Shown: positions 3,553 to 10,464 of the stretch, one piece after another
How the letters are laid out: each line of letters starts with the position of its first letter
How positions within the stretch are numbered: the stretch's first letter is position 1
Notes under the pieces: model-generated
What the model was told of the DNA's origin: nothing
Seen by the model: the letters and a program-made list of their open reading frames with translations, nothing else
Databases searched by the model: none
Program-made: the position numbers and the translations under genes
Source of the DNA: Cellulomonas cellasea
GTDB taxonomy: Bacteria; Actinomycetota; Actinomycetes; Actinomycetales; Cellulomonadaceae
Length of the DNA: 64,000 bases
Assembly (NCBI RefSeq): GCF_030372105.1
Contig: NZ_JAUDBQ010000014.1
Span: 1 to 64,000, forward strand
Reading direction: 5' to 3'

Positions 3553-4581
3553 TCAGCCGAGGGCGACCTGCGCGGCCTGCTCGGGCAGTCCCGGGAACGC
3601 CGTCGGCTCGGCGCCCCAGACGGCGGCGTCCGACGTGGCCTGCCGCAGCGCGTCCACGGCTGACGTGCGCGTGCCGGTGGCCGCCTCCGCCGCGAGGTTC
3701 GCGTACCCGGCCGCCAGGGACATCTCGATCGAACGGGCCAGCTCCACCGCGACGGCAGGGTCGTCGAGCCCTGTGGGCAGCGCGTACGCGAGGCGGCGCG
3801 GATCCGAGCCCGAGGAGACGAGGCCGGAGGTGTCGGCCCACACCTGGGCCCGCGCACGGTGCTGGGCCGCCCTGGCCTGAGCCTCGGCGCGCTGGCCGTC
3901 GGCGAGCTTCGCCGCGATCACCTCGAACGCGTACCCGGCCTCGTCCTCAGCGAGCACGAGCGCCGACAGGACTGTGAGATCCACGGCCCCGGGGGCCGGC
4001 GCCGGGTCGAAAGCAGGTGTGACACCGGCGGGGGCCTCGACGCCCAGCGCCCCCGCGAGGCGGACGGCGAGCTCCGCGCGGGCGGTCGACACCGACGCGA
4101 GCAGGCGCGCGAGCCCGCCCGAGGCGGCGCTGTTCGCGTCGGCGCGGGCTGTGAGTGTTGTCACAGCGAGCAGTGCGAGCACGTCGCCCGGCAGGACGAT
4201 GGGCGGCGCCGAGGACGCCGTCTCCGGCAGCGCCCCGTCGGTCTCCAGGCCTGAGTCGTACACCCCGCCGAGCTGCTCGCTGTGCAGGTCGGAGAACTCC
4301 GCGACGGACCCGAGCGCCTGCGCGACCGCGTCGTCGTCGGCGGCGGGGCTGAGGGCGGCGACGCGCGCGTGCTCGGCGAGCATCGCGGCGTCCTCCACCG
4401 TCCGGCTGCGCGTCAGCTCGGCGGCGTCGGGCTGGGGCGCCTGCGGGGCAGGCGACTCGAGCCGCAGGTCGCACCCCGTCAACAGCAGCGCCGCCGCCAG
4501 CACGGCGACGACGAGCCGTCGCGCGCCGGGCAGGCGGCTCGCTGCGGGGCGCGCGGTCGGGGTGTGGCGGGTCGCGGTCAT
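3553..4581 (-). CDS. DUF4439 ferritin-like-domain lipoprotein
   Basis: A 342-residue exported lipoprotein of unknown role. The start at 4581 gives a basic N-terminus, a hydrophobic stretch (RRLVVAVLAAALLLTGC) and a lipobox with the acylated cysteine at residue 37. The rest is alanine-rich and helical. Residues from about 200 to the end (AVDLTVLSALVLAEDEAGYAFEV, AQHRARAQ) match what I know as DUF4439, a four-helix ferritin-like fold found in actinobacteria. A longer frame reaches 4662, but its extra residues are arginine-rich and would bury the signal peptide. It is divergent from rimP. Annotation beyond the domain name is not possible from sequence alone. Confidence 0.75.
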   Translation of the reverse strand: MTATRHTPTARPAASRLPGARRLVVAVLAAALLLTGCDLRLESPAPQAPQPDAAELTRSRTVEDAAMLAEHARVAALSPAADDDAVAQALGSVAEFSDLHSEQLGGVYDSGLETDGALPETASSAPPIVLPGDVLALLAVTTLTARADANSAASGGLARLLASVSTARAELAVRLAGALGVEAPAGVTPAFDPAPAPGAVDLTVLSALVLAEDEAGYAFEVIAAKLADGQRAEAQARAAQHRARAQVWADTSGLVSSGSDPRRLAYALPTGLDDPAVAVELARSIEMSLAAGYANLAAEAATGTRTSAVDALRQATSDAAVWGAEPTAFPGLPEQAAQVALG

Positions 4582-4709
4582 CGCGGTGATCCTGCCATGT
4601 CGGTGGCGCCGTCCGGCAGGCGTGCGCGGACTCGTTACGCTGGACCCCTCACAACAACACAAGGGTCGACACCACGCAGGTGACCCGCTGGAGCCGACAG
4701 GAGGCGATC

Positions 4710-5291
4710 ATGCCCGCGCCAGCAACAGCGCAACGGGTCCGGGACGTCGTGGAGCCACTCGTGAGCGCCGCAGGCCTCGTGATCGAGGAGATCGAGGTGG
4801 TCCGCGCCGGCAAGGCGTCGGTCGTCCGGATCCTGGTGGACCTCGAGGAGGACGCCGAGGGCGGACTCGACCTCGAGGACGTCGCCGAGGTCTCGCAGGC
4901 GATCTCCGACGCGCTGGACGCCGCCGCCGTCGTGGGCGGCGAGCACACGCTGGAGGTGTCGAGCCCGGGGGTGGGGCGCGCGCTCACCGAGCGCCGCCAC
5001 TTCACCCGCGCCCGCGGCCGGATGATGACTCTCACCCGCACCGACGGCTCGACGCTGCGCGGCCGGCTCGACGACGTGGACCGCACGGCGCCGGACGCCG
5101 CCGAGTTGGTCCTCATCCCCGAGACGCCGGGGCTGAAGGGGCGACCGCCCAAGGTGGGGGCCCCGGTCCGTGTGCCGCTCGCAGCGGTGCGCGAGGGCCG
5201 GGTCGAAGTGGAGATGGGACGGCTCGCCGAGGTGTCCGACGACGAGGACGACGACGCGCAGGACGCGACGTCGGCAGGACAGGAGAGCTGA
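4710..5291 (+). CDS. rimP: Ribosome maturation factor RimP
   Basis: Needed for assembly of the 30S subunit. The 193-residue protein has the RimP N-terminal domain ([21 protein letters not shown]) and the diagnostic [16 protein letters not shown] segment near residue 90, then the SH3-like C-terminal domain. The tail is acidic (EDDDAQD) and variable in the family. ATG at 4710 is preceded by AGGAGG at 4699-4704. A possible start 30 bases upstream lacks such a site. It is the first gene of the rimP-nusA-ylxR-infB block, and nusA starts one base after its stop, so translation is probably coupled. Confidence 0.93.
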
Positions 5292-5292
5292 C

Positions 5293-6366
5293 GTGGACAT
5301 CGACATGCATGCGCTGAGGATGCTGGAGCGCGAACGCGACATCAGCCTGGGGGTGCTGGTCTCGGCGATCGAGCAGGCATTGCTCTCCGCCTACCACCGC
5401 ACGCCCGGCGCACAGGCCGTCGCCCGGGTCGAGCTCGACCAGGCGACCGGGCACGTGACCGTGTGGGCGCGCGAGGAGATCACGCCGAAGGCGCCCGAGG
5501 GCGACGTCGAGGGCGAGGCGCCGCCGCAGGCGGTGGTGCTGGGGCCCGAGTTCGACGACACCCCTGCCGGGTTCGGGCGGATCGCCACGGCGACGGCGCG
5601 CCAGGTCATCGTGCAGCGGCTGCGGGACGCCGAGGACGACCAGGTCCTCGGCGCGTTCCGCGGCAAGGAGGGCGAGGTGCTCGGCGGCGTCATCCAGCAG
5701 GGCCGGGACCCGCGCGTGGTGCTCGTGGAGGTGCGTGGCACGGAGGCTGTGCTGCCCGCCCACGAGCAGGTCCCCACCGAGCAGTACGTGCATGGCGAGC
5801 GGTTGCGGGCGTTGGTGCTCGATGTCTCCCGCGGCGCGAAGGGCCCGCAGATCACGCTCTCGCGGACCCACCCGAACCTGGTCCGCCAGCTCTTCGCGCT
5901 GGAGGTCCCCGAGGTGGCCGACGGCTCGGTGGAGATCATGGCCATCGCCCGCGAGGCGGGCCACCGCACCAAGATGGCGGTGCGGACCCGGGTGCAGGGG
6001 CTCAACGCGAAGGGCGCCTGCATCGGCCCGATGGGCGCGCGGGTGCGCGCTGTCATGTCCGAGCTGCACGGCGAGAAGATCGACATCGTCGACTACTCCG
6101 ACGACCCGGCTGAGATGGTCGCGCACGCGCTCTCGCCCGCTCGTGTGCTCTCCGTCACTGTGGTCGACCCGGAGGCCCGCGCGGCCCGGGTGATCGTGCC
6201 CGACTACCAGCTGTCGCTGGCGATCGGCAAGGAGGGCCAGAACGCGCGGCTCGCGGCCAAGCTGACGGGTTGGCGCATCGACATCCGCTCCGACGCCGCC
6301 GAGGCCGCGGCCTCGGATCAGGACGACGCGACGGGGCAGGGCGCCGGCTCCGGTCACGGCCGGTGA
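5293..6366 (+). CDS. nusA: Transcription termination/antitermination factor NusA
   Basis: Binds RNA polymerase and nascent RNA to control pausing, termination and antitermination. The 357-residue product holds the N-terminal polymerase-binding domain ([19 protein letters not shown]), an S1 domain (about 125-200, [17 protein letters not shown]), and two KH domains, the second with the [20 protein letters not shown] signature near 310. It lacks the C-terminal acidic repeats of E. coli NusA, as in other actinobacteria. The GTG at 5293 is preferred because AGGAGAG lies five bases upstream; ATG at 5305 is an alternative. The GTGA at its end overlaps a possible early start of ylxR. Confidence 0.95.
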
Positions 6367-6458
6367 CACGGCGCGGTAGACTCTCCGAGGCTGGGCCGGA
6401 CGCCCGGCTCTCCTCCTCGAGCCAGCCGAGCTCCGCCACGTCGAGTGGCGAGGGCCCG

Positions 6459-6749
6459 GTGCGCACGTGTGTGGGGTGCCGGTCGGCCGACCTGAGGTCG
6501 GTCCTGTTGAGGACGGTCGTCCACACGGACGGCGCGGGGAATCCTGTGCTGGTCGTCGACGTCGACCGGCGTCTTCCGGGCCGGGGGGCGTGGCTGCACC
6601 CCGATCCTCGTTGTCTCGAGCTCGCCGAACGCCGCCGTGCGTTCCCGCGGGCCCTGCGTGTCGCAGGGCCGCTGGACGTCCGGCCGGTGCAGGCGCACCT
6701 CGAGGCCGCAAGGCATCACCAGCTCCCGGGTCCGAGCCCGGAAGCGTAG
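6459..6749 (+). CDS. ylxR: YlxR-family RNA-binding protein (DUF448)
   Basis: Small basic protein usually encoded between nusA and infB. The signature GPVRTCVGCR is present at the N-terminus, followed by GRGAWLHPDPRCLELAERRRAF, the conserved second half of the fold. The chosen GTG at 6459 makes 96 residues and has GAGG a few bases upstream. The same frame is open back to a GTG at 6363 that overlaps the nusA stop (GTGA), which would add 32 poorly conserved residues; the choice is not certain. In some bacteria YlxR binds RNase P RNA and affects transcription; that role here is inference from the family. Confidence 0.85.
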   Translation: MRTCVGCRSADLRSVLLRTVVHTDGAGNPVLVVDVDRRLPGRGAWLHPDPRCLELAERRRAFPRALRVAGPLDVRPVQAHLEAARHHQLPGPSPEA

Positions 6750-6759
6750 AACCGTCGAC

Positions 6760-6798
6760 ATGGGAAGCGGGTTTGAGAAGCCGATGGCTGCCCGATGA
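6760..6798 (+). CDS. Leader mini-ORF 1 (12 residues)
   Basis: ATG at 6760, ten bases after the ylxR stop, encodes MGSGFEKPMAAR. An in-frame ATG at 6784 would give only MAAR. The stop TGA (6796-6798) overlaps the next ATG at 6795. There is no clear ribosome binding site, so entry by ribosomes finishing ylxR is likely. Confidence 0.4.
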   Translation: MGSGFEKPMAAR

Positions 6799-6812
6799 GC
6801 ACGCACCGATGA
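6795..6812 (+). CDS. Leader mini-ORF 2 (MSTHR)
   Basis: ATG AGC ACG CAC CGA TGA. The start overlaps the stop of mini-ORF 1 and the stop overlaps the start of mini-ORF 3 (ATGA at both junctions). First unit of a 14-base tandem repeat. Confidence 0.4.
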   Translation: MSTHR

Positions 6813-6826
6813 GTACCCAGCGATGA
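6809..6826 (+). CDS. Leader mini-ORF 3 (MSTQR)
   Basis: ATG AGT ACC CAG CGA TGA. Serine and threonine are kept relative to mini-ORF 2 with different codons (AGT/AGC, ACC/ACG), a small hint that the peptide matters. ATGA overlaps on both sides. Confidence 0.4.
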   Translation: MSTQR

Positions 6827-6840
6827 GTACCCAGCACTAA
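6823..6840 (+). CDS. Leader mini-ORF 4 (MSTQH)
   Basis: ATG AGT ACC CAG CAC TAA. Last unit of the chain; it ends on TAA just four bases before the 5' arm of hairpin A, so a ribosome stopping here would cover that arm. The infB start lies 43 bases further on. Confidence 0.4.
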
Positions 6841-6883
6841 CGACGGTCCGACCCTGTCTTGGGCGGACCGAGACAGGAGAGAT

Positions 6884-9775
6884 GTGGCCAAGGTCCGCGT
6901 CTACGAGCTCGCCAAAGAGCTCGGAGTGGAAAGCAAGACCATCATGACCAAGCTGGGCGAGCTCGGAGAGTTCGTCCGCTCGGCGTCCTCGACGATCGAG
7001 CCCCCGGTCGTGCGCAAGCTGCGCGACCTCTACCCCGTGGGGGAGTCGGCTCCCGCGCCGAAGGCGCCTCGTCCGGCTGCTCCGGCTCCGGCCGCCCCGC
7101 CGGCCGCACAGGCCTCGACGCCCGCGCCGGCTGCTCCGGCGCCGTCCGCTCCCGCGCCCGCCCCGGCTGCTCCGGCTCCCGCCCCGGCGGCTGCCAAGCC
7201 TGCCGCGGCTCCGGCTCCGGCTCCGGCTCCCGCTCCGGCCCCGGCTCCGGCTCCGGCTCCGGCTGAGCGTCCGGCGGCGGCTGCCGCCCCGGCACGCCCG
7301 CAGGCGGCGCCCGGCGCCCGTCCCGGCCCGCGTCCGGCTCCTGCCGCGCCGGCCCGCTCCGGCGGCCCGCGTCCCGGCAACAACCCGTTCGCGCCCTCGC
7401 AGGGCATGCCCCGCGGCGGCCAGGACCGTCAGGGTGGCGGCGGCCAGGGCGGTCCCCGTCCCGGCGGCCCGCGTCCGGGCAACAACCCGTTCGCGCCCTC
7501 GCAGGGCATGCCGCGTCCGGGCGAGCGTCGCAACGACAACGCCGCCCCCGCGGCCTCCGGCGCGCCGTCCAGCACGGGCGAGCGCTCCGGCGGTCCCCGT
7601 CCCGGTGGCCCGCGCCCGAACCCCGGCATGATGCCGGGCCGCAGCTCGAGCGGCGTCGGCCGCCCGGGTGAGCGTCCGAGCCCCGGTGGCCGCCCTGGTG
7701 GCGGTCGTCCCGGCGGTGGCGGCGGCTTCGCCGGTCGTCCCGGTGGCCCTGGTGGCCCCGGCGGCGCGCCCGGTGGCGGCGGCGGCTTCGCTGGCCGTCC
7801 CGGCGGCGGTGGCCGTCCGGGTGGCGCCGGTCGTGGCAGCACGCAGGGCGCCTTCGGCCGCGCTGGAGGGCGCCCCGTCCGCGGGCGCAAGTCGAAGCGG
7901 GCGAAGCGTCAAGAGTTCGAGCAGATGCAGGCCCCCTCGCTGGGTGGCGTGCAGGTTCCGCGCGGCAACGGCAAGACGGTCGTCCGCCTGCGCCACGGCT
8001 CGTCGCTGAACGACTTCGCCGACAAGATCGACGCGAACCCCGCCAGCCTGGTCACGGTGCTGTTCCACCTCGGTGAGATGGCGACCGCGACCCAGTCGCT
8101 GGACGAGGACACGTTCGGCACGCTGGCCCAGGAGCTCGGCTACGTCATCGAGATGGTCTCGGCCGAGGAGGAGGACCGCGAGCTGCTCGGGGCCTTCGAC
8201 ATCGACCTGGACGCCGAGCTGGCCGAGGAGGGCGACGACGAGCTGCGTCCGCGCCCGCCGGTGGTCACCGTCATGGGCCACGTCGACCACGGCAAGACCA
8301 AGCTCCTCGACGCGATCCGTCGCACGGACGTCGTCGCCGGTGAGGCGGGTGGCATCACCCAGCACATCGGCGCCTACCAGGTGCGCGCCGAGCACGAGGG
8401 CGTCGACCGCGCCATCACGTTCATCGACACCCCGGGCCACGAGGCGTTCACCGCCATGCGTGCCCGTGGCGCGCAGGTCACCGACATCGCGATCCTCGTG
8501 GTCGCGGCCGATGACGGCGTGATGCCGCAGACCATCGAGGCGCTCAACCACGCCCAGGCGGCCGGTGTGCCGATCGTCGTGGCCGTGAACAAGGTGGACA
8601 AGGAGGCGGCCAACCCCGCCAAGATCCGCCAGCAGCTCACCGAGTACAACCTCGTGGCCGAGGAGTACGGCGGCGACACGATGTTCGTCGACGTCTCCGC
8701 GAAGCAGAACCTGGGCATCGACCAGCTGCTGGAGGCCGTGCTGCTCACGGCGGACGCCTCGCTCGACCTGCGGGCCAACCCCGACAAGGACGCGCGTGGC
8801 GTGGCCATCGAGGCGAACCTGGACAAGGGCCGCGGCGCCGTCGCGACAGTCCTGGTCCAGTCCGGCACGCTGCACGTCGGCGACGCGATCGTCGCCGGCA
8901 CGGCGCACGGCCGCGTCCGGGCGATGTTCGACGAGCACGGCAACGCGCTGACCGAGGCGGGGCCGGCACGTCCGGTCATGGTCCTCGGCCTCGCGTCGGT
9001 GCCGAGCGCCGGCGACACGTTCCTGGTGGCCCCTGACGAGCGCACCGCCCGTCAGATCGCCGAGAAGCGCGAGTCGGCCGAGCGTGCCGCCCTCCTGGCC
9101 AAGCGTCGCAAGCGCATCAGCCTCGAGGACTTCACGCAGGCGCTGCAGCAGGGCAAGGTCGAGACCCTCAACCTGGTCCTCAAGGGCGACGTCTCCGGCG
9201 CCGTCGAGGCGCTCGAGGACGCGCTGCTCAAGATCGACGTGGGCGAGGGCGTGGACCTGCGGGTCATCCACCGCGGCGTCGGCGCGATCACCCAGAACGA
9301 CGTCAACCTCGCGACCGTGGACAACGCGGTCATCGTCGGGTTCAACGTCAAGTTCGGGGAGCGTGTCGAGGAGCTCGCCGAGCGCGAGGGTGTGGACGTC
9401 CGGTTCTACTCGGTCATCTACCAGGCGATCGACGACGTCGAGGCGGCCCTCAAGGGCCTGCTCAAGCCGGAGTACGAGGAGGCGCAGCTCGGCACCGCGG
9501 AGGTGCGCGAGGTGTTCCGCTCCTCGAAGTTCGGCAACATCGCCGGTTCGCTGGTCCGCTCCGGGGAGATCCGGCGCAACACCAAGGCCCGCGTGCTGCG
9601 CAACGGCAAGGTCGTGGGGGACAACCTCACGGTCGAGTCGCTCAAGCGGTTCCGTGACGACGCGACAGAGGTCCGCGAGGGTTACGAGTGCGGTATCGGG
9701 CTCGGCTCCTTCAACGACATCGAGATCGGCGACGTCATCGAGACGTGGGAGATGCGCGAGAAGCCTCGCAAGTAG
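6884..9775 (+). CDS. infB: Translation initiation factor IF-2
   Basis: GTPase that brings initiator tRNA to the 30S subunit and joins the subunits. The GTG start at 6884 follows AGGAGAG and gives [17 protein letters not shown], the standard N-terminus. The 963 residues begin with an IF2-N helix domain (1-50), an Ala/Pro-rich stretch (55-130), and a Gly/Pro/Arg-rich linker (130-335) containing a duplicated block. The G domain has GHVDHGKT near 464, DTPGHEAF near 512 and NKVDK near 568. Domains II, III and the C-terminal C1/C2 domains complete it. The long low-complexity linker is typical of actinobacterial IF2. The unusual leader is described separately. Confidence 0.97.
7376..7512 (+). repeat. 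Intragenic direct repeat in the IF2 linker
   Basis: An identical 35-base block occurs at 7376-7410 and 7478-7512, 102 bases (34 codons) apart, encoding [12 protein letters not shown] twice. Being in frame, it looks like an internal duplication within the disordered linker. Confidence 0.85.
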
Positions 9776-9786
9776 CTGACAGCGGT

Positions 9787-9820
9787 CAGGTGGCCCGTGC
9801 CCTCGGGTGCGGGCCACCTG
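9787..9820 (+). terminator. Hairpin between infB and rbfA
   Basis: An 11-bp inverted repeat, CAGGTGGCCCG at 9787-9797 with CGGGCCACCTG at 9810-9820, and a 12-base loop, starting 11 bases after the infB stop. There is no T-run. It may lower read-through into rbfA or protect the 3' end of the infB message. Confidence 0.5.
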
Positions 9821-9869
9821 GCGTCTGCGGACAACGTGCCCTCGTGGAGGGCGAGAAGGGCTGGGCATC

Positions 9870-10322
9870 ATGGCTGACCATGGCCGCGCGAGGAAGCTCG
9901 CGGAACGGATCCAGCAGATCGTCGCGCAGATGCTCGACACGCGGGTCAAGGACCCGCGGCTGGGATTCGTCACCATCACGGACGTCCGGGTGACGGGCGA
10001 CCTGCAGAGCGCGAGCGTGTTCTACACGGTCTACGGCGACGACGAGGCGCGTGCCGGCACGGCCGCGGCGCTCGAGAGCGCCAAGGGGCTCATCCGCTCC
10101 GAGGTGGGCAAGCAGACGGGCATCCGGCTGACGCCGACGCTCGAGTTCCACCTGGACGCCGTCCCTGAGACGGCGGCGCACCTGGACGCCGCGCTGCACG
10201 AGGCGGCGCGCCGGGACGCCGAGGTCGCGGCGCTGGCCGCGGCCGCGCAGTACGCCGGCGACGCGGACCCGTACCGCAAGCCGGTCGAGGACGACTCCGA
10301 GGACGAGGACTCGCAGGGCTGA
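9870..10322 (+). CDS. rbfA: Ribosome-binding factor RbfA
   Basis: KH-fold protein for late 30S assembly and cold adaptation. The 150-residue product begins MADHGRARKLAERIQQIVAQ and contains the family core DPRLGFVTITDVRVTGDLQSASVFYTV. The tail is acidic and variable. ATG at 9870 matches the conserved N-terminus; an ORF running from 9807 adds only arginine-rich sequence. It follows infB after a hairpin. In most actinobacteria truB comes next; here an exporter and its regulator intervene. Confidence 0.94.
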   Translation: MADHGRARKLAERIQQIVAQMLDTRVKDPRLGFVTITDVRVTGDLQSASVFYTVYGDDEARAGTAAALESAKGLIRSEVGKQTGIRLTPTLEFHLDAVPETAAHLDAALHEAARRDAEVAALAAAAQYAGDADPYRKPVEDDSEDEDSQG

Positions 10323-10358: not shown

Positions 10359-10401
10359 GGCTCAGGCCCGGCGCGCCCCATCGGCGCGCCGGGCCTGAGC
10401 C
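10359..10401. terminator. Strong 19-bp hairpin terminator after rbfA
   Basis: Perfect 19-bp inverted repeat, GGCTCAGGCCCGGCGCGCC at 10359-10377 with its complement at 10383-10401, and a five-base loop. It lies between the convergent stops of rbfA and the MFS gene and should end both transcripts. Confidence 0.8.
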
Positions 10402-10464
10402 GTCTCGTGGGGCCTGAGCCGTCTCGTGGGGCCTGTGCTATCTCGTGGGGCCTGTGCTCAGGCC
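10392..10464. repeat. 19-base tandem repeats copied from the terminator arm
   Basis: GGCCTGAGCCGTCTCGTGG occurs at 10392-10410 and 10411-10429. A variant, GGCCTGTGCTATCTCGTGG, follows at 10430-10448, and a partial fourth copy starts at 10449. The first ten bases of the first unit are the outer part of the terminator's right arm. The last partial unit forms its own hairpin (GGCCTG-TGCT-CAGGCC, 10449-10464) over the MFS stop codon. Confidence 0.85.

Follow-up and report, generated by a model that had tools for sequence, protein, structure and literature searches.

In Escherichia coli, the gene of initiation factor IF3 (infC) is autoregulated through a non-canonical start codon. Stop and start codons that share bases are known from ATGA/TGATG gene pairs, in which a restart by the terminating ribosome is presumed (PMC6728339, PMC10666635; these and the papers below are cited from excerpts). 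At a distance of about 22 nt in archaeal pairs, reinitiation had dropped to almost nothing, and at 38 nt in E. coli pairs it was reduced by at least 80% (PMC10666635). It has been reported for E. coli that reinitiation with a mutant initiator tRNA rose about 2.5-fold when IF2 was overproduced, and that a Shine-Dalgarno (SD) sequence also raised reinitiation; the authors suggested that the requirement for IF2 may be greater in reinitiation than in de novo initiation (PMC2268962). Termination-reinitiation with involvement of RNA structure is described for the ppe2 AUGA uORF and the metE uORF of M. tuberculosis (PMC11260477). In leader-peptide attenuators, such as the LEU element (PMC1262725) and the ilvB1 attenuator (PMC13236596), the ribosome on a leader ORF selects between exclusive pairings. 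For the control of infB itself, the gene of IF2, only a cold-stress study in E. coli was found in the open-licence PMC literature, as far as its excerpts go (PMC6511841), and no description of the infB leader analysed here was found in the open-licence PMC full texts.

In this study, we analysed a 64-kb window, the whole stretch of 64,000 nt from Cellulomonas cellasea, in which a chain of mini-ORFs lies between ylxR and infB (Table 1). The earlier note on this DNA had placed ATGA overlaps at 6795, 6809 and 6823 between the two genes, read units 2-4 as a 14-base tandem repeat and named IF2 as the product of the downstream gene. The overlaps are present in the sequence, a repeat scan returned units 2-4 as a 14-nt tandem repeat at 6793-6835 (3.1 copies, 89% matches), and the Pfam matches of the downstream gene are those of IF2, with Cellulomonas species as the closest named relatives of its N-terminus (96% identity). 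Units 2 and 3 differ by the two synonymous changes described and also by a non-synonymous one, CAC/CAG (H/Q), that had been overlooked. The first start had been put at ATG 6760, 10 nt past the ylxR stop; the first conserved start is instead at 6784, 34 nt past it. ATG 6760 is in frame with 6784, but most relatives printed have no ATG there, and it was rejected as part of the conserved element. When both strands were scanned, the pre-infB chain was the only chain of at least three ORFs of 3-8 codons in the window.

A consensus scan of 6250-7000 returned no terminator-like site with a hairpin and a T run; both an intrinsic terminator and a sigma-70 promoter in this interval were rejected on the basis of the consensus scan. 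A search of 4300-7400 against Rfam release 15 gave two matches up to E 5, far below the gathering score and outside the leader; a known Rfam element was rejected, since the leader has no match to a curated covariance model. Other repeats near infB are a 19-nt tandem repeat (GGGCCTGAGCCGTCTCGTG; 10391-10454, 3.4 copies, 93% matches), which follows the reading frame at 9807-10322 downstream of infB, and an array of CGGCTC hexamers (7206-7264, 9.8 copies, 92% matches), which encodes Pro-Ala repeats in the N-terminal region of IF2.

Table 1. Features of the ylxR-infB region, in positions of the window.
Feature	Positions	Strand	Basis or remark
ylxR reading frame, gene upstream	6270..6749	+	Pfam YlxR, E 2e-18; 6270 is the frame limit, not an assigned start
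P0 5' arm (ACCGTCG), partner 6841-6847	6751..6757	+	leader MFE; swap test
SD-like AAGCGGGT of mini-ORF 1, AAG(C/T)(A/G)GGT in many relatives	6765..6772	+	anti-SD duplex energy, modest effect
Mini-ORF 1 (MAAR, ATG GCT GCC CGA TGA), conserved first ORF	6784..6798	+	sequence and comparison with relatives
Mini-ORF 2 (MSTHR), start overlapping the ORF 1 stop	6795..6812	+	sequence and chain scans
Mini-ORF 3 (MSTQR), start overlapping the ORF 2 stop	6809..6826	+	sequence and chain scans
Mini-ORF 4 (MSTQH), end of the putative relay, stop TAA 6838-6840	6823..6840	+	sequence and chain scans
P0 3' arm (CGACGGT), right behind the last stop, 6844-6847 common to P1	6841..6847	+	swap tests
P1 hairpin, CGGTCCG ... 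CGGACCG	6844..6870	+	stem searches, swap tests, covariation; -18.9 kcal/mol
P2 hairpin, CCTGTCTTGG / CCGAGACAGG, over part of the infB SD, exclusive with P1	6853..6877	+	swap test; -17.0 kcal/mol
infB Shine-Dalgarno AGGAG	6875..6879	+	sequence
infB (IF2), GTG start	6884..9775	+	Pfam IF2_N, GTP_EFTU, IF-2

Conservation of the chain and of its linked frames

The regions upstream of infB were collected from 80 named loci, from the loci of two genome searches and from 80 fetched regions. The 218 loci analysed yielded 187 class loci (IF2 score of at least 130, start codon found, at least 170 nt upstream), of which 121 were non-redundant. In a strict scan (ATG or GTG starts, at least 3 codons, end of the chain 28-70 nt before infB), a chain of at least three mini-ORFs was found in 117 of the 121 loci, and in 182 of 187 with redundancy. 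The chain comprised three ORFs in 96 loci, four in 20 and five in one; two loci had two ORFs and two had one. Chains of at least three appeared in 0.19% of 4840 strictly scanned dinucleotide shuffles of the 121 loci. A permissive scan, which counts the 2-codon TTG ORFs of Streptomyces that the strict scan excludes, found such chains in 118 of the 121 loci and in 2.9% of shuffles. Outside the class, two linked ORFs were found in 0 of 26 loci. Named genera in which the chain occurs include Cellulomonas, Oerskovia, Cellulosimicrobium, Sanguibacter, Promicromonospora, Arthrobacter and Streptomyces.

The loci that failed the strict scan were L071 (Sinomonas) and L123, with one ORF each, and L137 and L160, with two. 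In the L071 leader, a TAG breaks the chain after the second ORF, and the P1 hairpin described below is still long (11 bp) and intact. L123, inspected by eye, seems to retain one mini-ORF (MRKQ), between about 64 and 49 nt before infB; its ATG shares bases with a TGA, which may be the stop of the upstream frame.

A covariance model of the leader (118 positions, built from 44 sequences, whose source genomes match by construction) was then compared with genomes. A match at E<=0.1 was found in 189 of 197 class genomes, with 181 of the 197 below 1e-4 and no match in 8; among genomes with completeness of 90% or more and contamination of 5% or less, 170 of 173 matched. At the level of families, 39 of 41 were matched, one of them (f87) at 1.4e-4 only. 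In 8 of the 189 matching class genomes the match lies above E 1e-4; the best outside match (2.6e-4) is of similar strength or stronger, and these eight could be chance. Among the 150 matches listed, the 95 with an infB place at hand were compared with it, and in every case (95 of 95) the match ends at the start of infB. In a draw across the phylum, 26 class genomes matched at E 5.2e-6 or better, and 18 genomes outside the class matched weakly, at E 2.6e-4 to 0.0097. For three of the outside genomes (G200, G203, G215), the infB contig is known, and the matches are on other contigs. In some genomes the model also matched at another place, e.g., at E 0.0031 (G246) and 0.0066 (G107). The persistence of the ATGA chain in relatives, which the earlier note had proposed to check, was thus borne out in 117 of 121 class loci, with MST peptides in many lineages. 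The GATGAGTAC arrays before infB that it mentioned for other actinobacteria proved to be real, as they recur across the class. Comparison of these sequences supports well a conserved mini-ORF relay, as the chain appears to be, before infB across Actinomycetes.

We next considered which property of the chain is kept. In the permissive scan, 282 of 290 links were NTGA and 8 were 1-nt overlaps. The spacing of RTGA was 2 mod 3 in 227 of 260 intervals, while the absolute spacing varied (102 of 11 nt, 106 of 14, 9 of 17, 5 of 20, and others), which is what linked frames require. The mini-ORFs mostly have 4-6 codons, and the length of the unit shifts by whole codons, from MSTR in Streptomyces to MSTQR in Cellulomonas. 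The start of ORF2 is GTG in 12 of 117 loci, with the overlap kept. One family (L024, L025, L027) has METK or MEIK / VNGSK / MRPVR plus one further residue (e.g., MRPVRE) in place of the MST peptides, and its overlaps are kept as well. In one Arthrobacter and one Paenarthrobacter representative (L082, L117) the last ORF is 23-24 codons long and its stop has the same position before P1. A lengthened last ORF with the same stop was also seen by eye in L091, L098, L099, L110 and L168, which have Arthrobacter-type leaders. Since the linkage survives changes of unit, start codon and peptide, the peptides appear to be less important than the way in which stops and starts are linked and the place where the last stop lies. 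A conserved peptide function was rejected, because the peptides differ between families and the linkage stays. Codon tables and peptides showed no conserved run of one amino acid that could serve as a regulatory codon run; MSTQR, MSAR, VNGSK and VKSR vary.

The hexamer GATGAG is strongly conserved in many lineages, and GATGAG-like repeats can mark RNA-binding sites. The repeats could therefore be a binding site for a protein or the 30S subunit (e.g., IF2, NusA, YlxR or a 30S standby site), with the frames as a by-product. We consider this improbable, because the 2 mod 3 spacing is kept while the absolute spacing changes, the L024, L025 and L027 family retains a chain of units without the repeat, and the switch to GTG start codons leaves the linkage unbroken.

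The anti-SD pairing of the starts was compared with shuffled sequences in 117 loci. The mean energy at the first start was -7.0 kcal/mol versus -6.3 in shuffles, a modest effect, and that at the infB start was -8.2 versus -7.0. Pairing was weaker than in shuffles at the second start (-2.8 versus -4.2 kcal/mol) and at the third (-2.1 versus -3.8), which could be due partly to conserved codons there. These results suggest that direct recruitment of ribosomes is plausible only at the first mini-ORF and at infB.

RNA pairings around the chain

The earlier account of the leader was right about the mini-ORF chain and missed the RNA pairings, which we designated P0, P1 and P2 (Table 1). Of the 121 class loci, 120 have a P1 stem that begins within the searched range of 0-7 nt past the last stop, 114 of them at 0-5 nt; the stem has at least 5 bp in 118 of the 120. 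Stems of at least 6 bp in the limited range occurred in 106 of 117 loci versus 16% of shuffles. Without a range limit, the best stem started 0-5 nt past the stop in 94 of 117 loci, and the rest were mostly at 8-13 nt, where P2 lies. The arms of P1 covary (GGTCCG/CGGACC, GGCCCG/CGGGCC, GAGGTCG/CGACCTC, GAGGCG/CGCCTC, GGTCCA/TGGACC). In a partner-swap test, matched arms gave -18.1 and swapped arms -14.4 (z -14.7, n=117); with 32 divergent loci z was -8.4, and scoring by contiguous stems gave z 8.4. The swap tests by duplex energy, and that of P0 by contiguous stems, used loci with a chain of three; all swap tests ignored phylogeny, so that their significance is overstated. On a MAFFT alignment, 14 doubly changed cells were counted for P1 versus 6.9+-2.1 in shuffles, a count that takes in rows of some families in which MAFFT misplaced P1; the number of pairs with double changes was unremarkable (3 versus 2.4).

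The swap test also gave a signal for P0, with z -5.7 in 117 class loci (4.6 by contiguous stems) versus -1.9 to +2.0 in five controls. The signal sits between -35 and -20 relative to the first start (z -5.0, n=78), and z was -2.3 at n=32, the strictest filter, over a wider interval. In most of the Streptomyces loci printed (L066, L072-L079 and others), GGTACCTCGCGAGT is nearly invariant between about 35 and 22 nt upstream of the first mini-ORF, and it is able to form a bulged P0 with GCGA(A/C)GGTCC. For P2, which joins the loop of P1 to the SD stretch, the swap by duplex energy gave z -7.4 (n=117) and -3.1 at n=32. The signal was weaker by contiguous stems (8.87 versus 8.26+-0.26, n=118, z about 2.3), and loop-to-tail stems with a score of at least 13 were found in 31 of 118 loci, not all of them over the SD.

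The predicted resting fold of the window leader combines P0 with P2, and P1 and P2 are nearly equal in energy. A pseudoknot with P1 and P2 together was rejected for the window lineage, because only about 2 nt would join the arms and the longer P2 overlaps P1; P1 and P2 were treated as exclusive for the same reasons. The predicted folding of the whole leader was moderately stronger than that of shuffles (z -1.4), and the difference was clearer for the stretch past the last stop (z -3.1). At the level of sequence, these results show a conserved chain with linked frames, a pattern of SD sequences, a covarying P1 and competing pairings.

A putative reinitiation relay and its alternatives

Quite possibly, although we hold it at somewhat less than even confidence, the ylxR-infB leader is a class-wide, cis-acting, IF2-dependent reinitiation relay that controls infB. 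From the arrangement of the leader we infer translation of the mini-ORFs, sensing of IF2 and a sign of control, as follows. A ribosome would load at mini-ORF 1 through the SD-like sequence and terminate after about 4 codons. ORFs 2, 3 (and 4) would be reached only by termination-reinitiation at the SD-less NTGA overlaps, and every restart would require initiator tRNA and IF2. The chance of reaching the last stop would then result from multiplying two or three restart probabilities, and it would drop steeply when IF2 is short. The array spans 46 nt with three ORFs (median), so that one ribosome could make all restarts. With the last stop just before P1, the arrival of a ribosome there, or its failure to arrive, would select P1, P0 or, in the window lineage, the SD-covering P2, and the choice of helix would set the ease of infB initiation. 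In the window, ample IF2 would place a ribosome at the last stop, where it would mask the 5' arm of P1 and P2 would cover the SD; with little IF2, the ribosome would be lost or held upstream, P1 would form and the SD would be freer.

IF2 sensitivity is expected of a chain of SD-less restarts because reinitiation depends on IF2 in E. coli, as far as the excerpts report (PMC2268962). For the same reason, and because starts 2 and 3 have no SD, the earlier suggestion of a leader that gauges the efficiency of initiation or reinitiation fits the sequence. We tentatively regard it as possible, with some doubt, that the leader is a new RNA sensor in which tandem stop/start overlaps meter initiation and a P0/P1(/P2) switch autoregulates IF2 across Actinomycetes. 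Our confidence in both the relay and the meter is reduced because the predicted sign of control hinges on the footprint that is assumed for the ribosome.

To predict this sign, the stretch covered by the ribosome was masked and the opening of the SD was compared between the last stop and the ORF2 stop at footprints of 6-14 nt. At 8-11 nt past the stop, opening cost +1.9 to +2.6 kcal/mol more at the last stop in 27 P2 loci (18-20 up, 1-2 down), a partly circular test as these loci were chosen because P2 was seen. The same loci showed no clear difference at 6-7 and 12-13 nt, and the difference was reversed at 14 nt (4 up, 18 down). In the window it was -2.7 kcal/mol at 6 nt, +2.9 at 9, +3.7 at 11 and -0.9 at 14. 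The other 90 loci, not chosen by P2, shifted by +0.2 to +0.5 kcal/mol, and the SD was accessible in every state in both Streptomyces loci that were printed (L015, L077). A universal read-out by SD sequestration was rejected, since the 90 loci barely shift and the SD is open in both Streptomyces loci. No SD difference was found over 117 loci between the ribosome-free leader and a ribosome held at ORF1 (p 0.93), so that P0 is not predicted to affect the SD overall. These results weakly favour negative feedback in a Cellulomonas-like window, with a predicted sign that changes with the footprint chosen. If arrival at the last stop favoured infB instead, the loop would be positive, which is less natural for homeostasis.

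As the SD is open in all states in lineages like Streptomyces, judged by the two loci printed, P1 must act otherwise there, perhaps by shortening the path from stop to start. The last mini-ORF neither overlaps infB nor lies within a few nt of its start; the last stop and the infB start are 43 nt apart in the linear sequence, and folding of P1 reduces this to 17 nt (medians, n=115). Given the distance limits in the excerpts of PMC10666635, direct reinitiation over 43 nt is doubtful if the distance is not shortened by P1.

This shortening also suits plain translational coupling with transcript protection and no sensing, in which the mini-ORFs would keep ribosomes on the long ylxR-infB gap, prevent Rho-dependent termination or RNA decay and bring ribosomes near infB, and P1 would merely shorten the path. 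The need of M. tuberculosis ppe2 expression for a single AUGA-overlap uORF, for which Rho was considered in the excerpts (PMC11260477), is a precedent of this kind. However, one longer ORF would serve equally, three or four SD-less restarts are a poor way to deliver ribosomes, and the competing P0, and P2, are left unexplained; we judge plain coupling rather unlikely. An attenuator-like leader with another input, namely initiator tRNA, formylation, IF3, ribosome recycling or initiation-blocking drugs, would differ from the IF2 relay in its input alone. Excerpts from work in E. coli describe reinitiation as dependent on the formylation of initiator tRNA and lowered by an excess of IF3 (PMC2268962), in line with such inputs. 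Yet infB is the controlled gene at all 95 compared places among the 150 matches listed, which makes IF2 the simplest quantity to be sensed, and we consider another input very improbable.

Comparison with known systems

If the relay works as proposed, it would be a ribosome-based gauge of initiation capacity in a class that includes Streptomyces, and it would offer a natural, tunable test bed for the limits of reinitiation in vivo. ORFs of 4-6 codons, below the usual annotation size, can belong to the best conserved elements in front of the gene of a translation factor. The parts are known, namely ATGA coupling, uORF control and leader attenuators; the chained restart relay, class-wide and tied to IF2, appears to be undescribed in the open-licence PMC literature.

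The 4-nt and 1-nt overlaps of the chain are the same as those of ATGA/TGATG gene pairs. However, such pairs, in the excerpts of PMC6728339 and PMC10666635, link protein genes, whereas here three or four micro-ORFs with no plausible protein are chained. Unlike the pairs, the infB chain has no inner SDs and ends at a conserved hairpin before the gene of a translation factor. The ppe2 and metE uORFs are likewise actinobacterial, but ppe2 has one overlapping uORF and the ppe2/metE system has B12 riboswitches (PMC11260477, excerpts); the infB leader has a chain, no known ligand and a last mini-ORF that does not overlap infB. In the leader-peptide attenuators, as is proposed here, the position of the ribosome selects exclusive pairings, and one of the pairings of the actinobacterial LEU element involves the SD (PMC1262725, excerpts). 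These attenuators, as excerpted, carry runs of codons for the regulating amino acid (PMC1262725, PMC13236596), in whose place the infB leader has the repeated stop/start overlap. The proposed initiation meter can be likened to the tandem His or Trp codons that meter charged tRNA in classical attenuators. As with infC, the gene of an initiation factor would be controlled via the step that its product affects; infC does so with one unusual start codon, whereas the infB leader would use a relay of ordinary starts.
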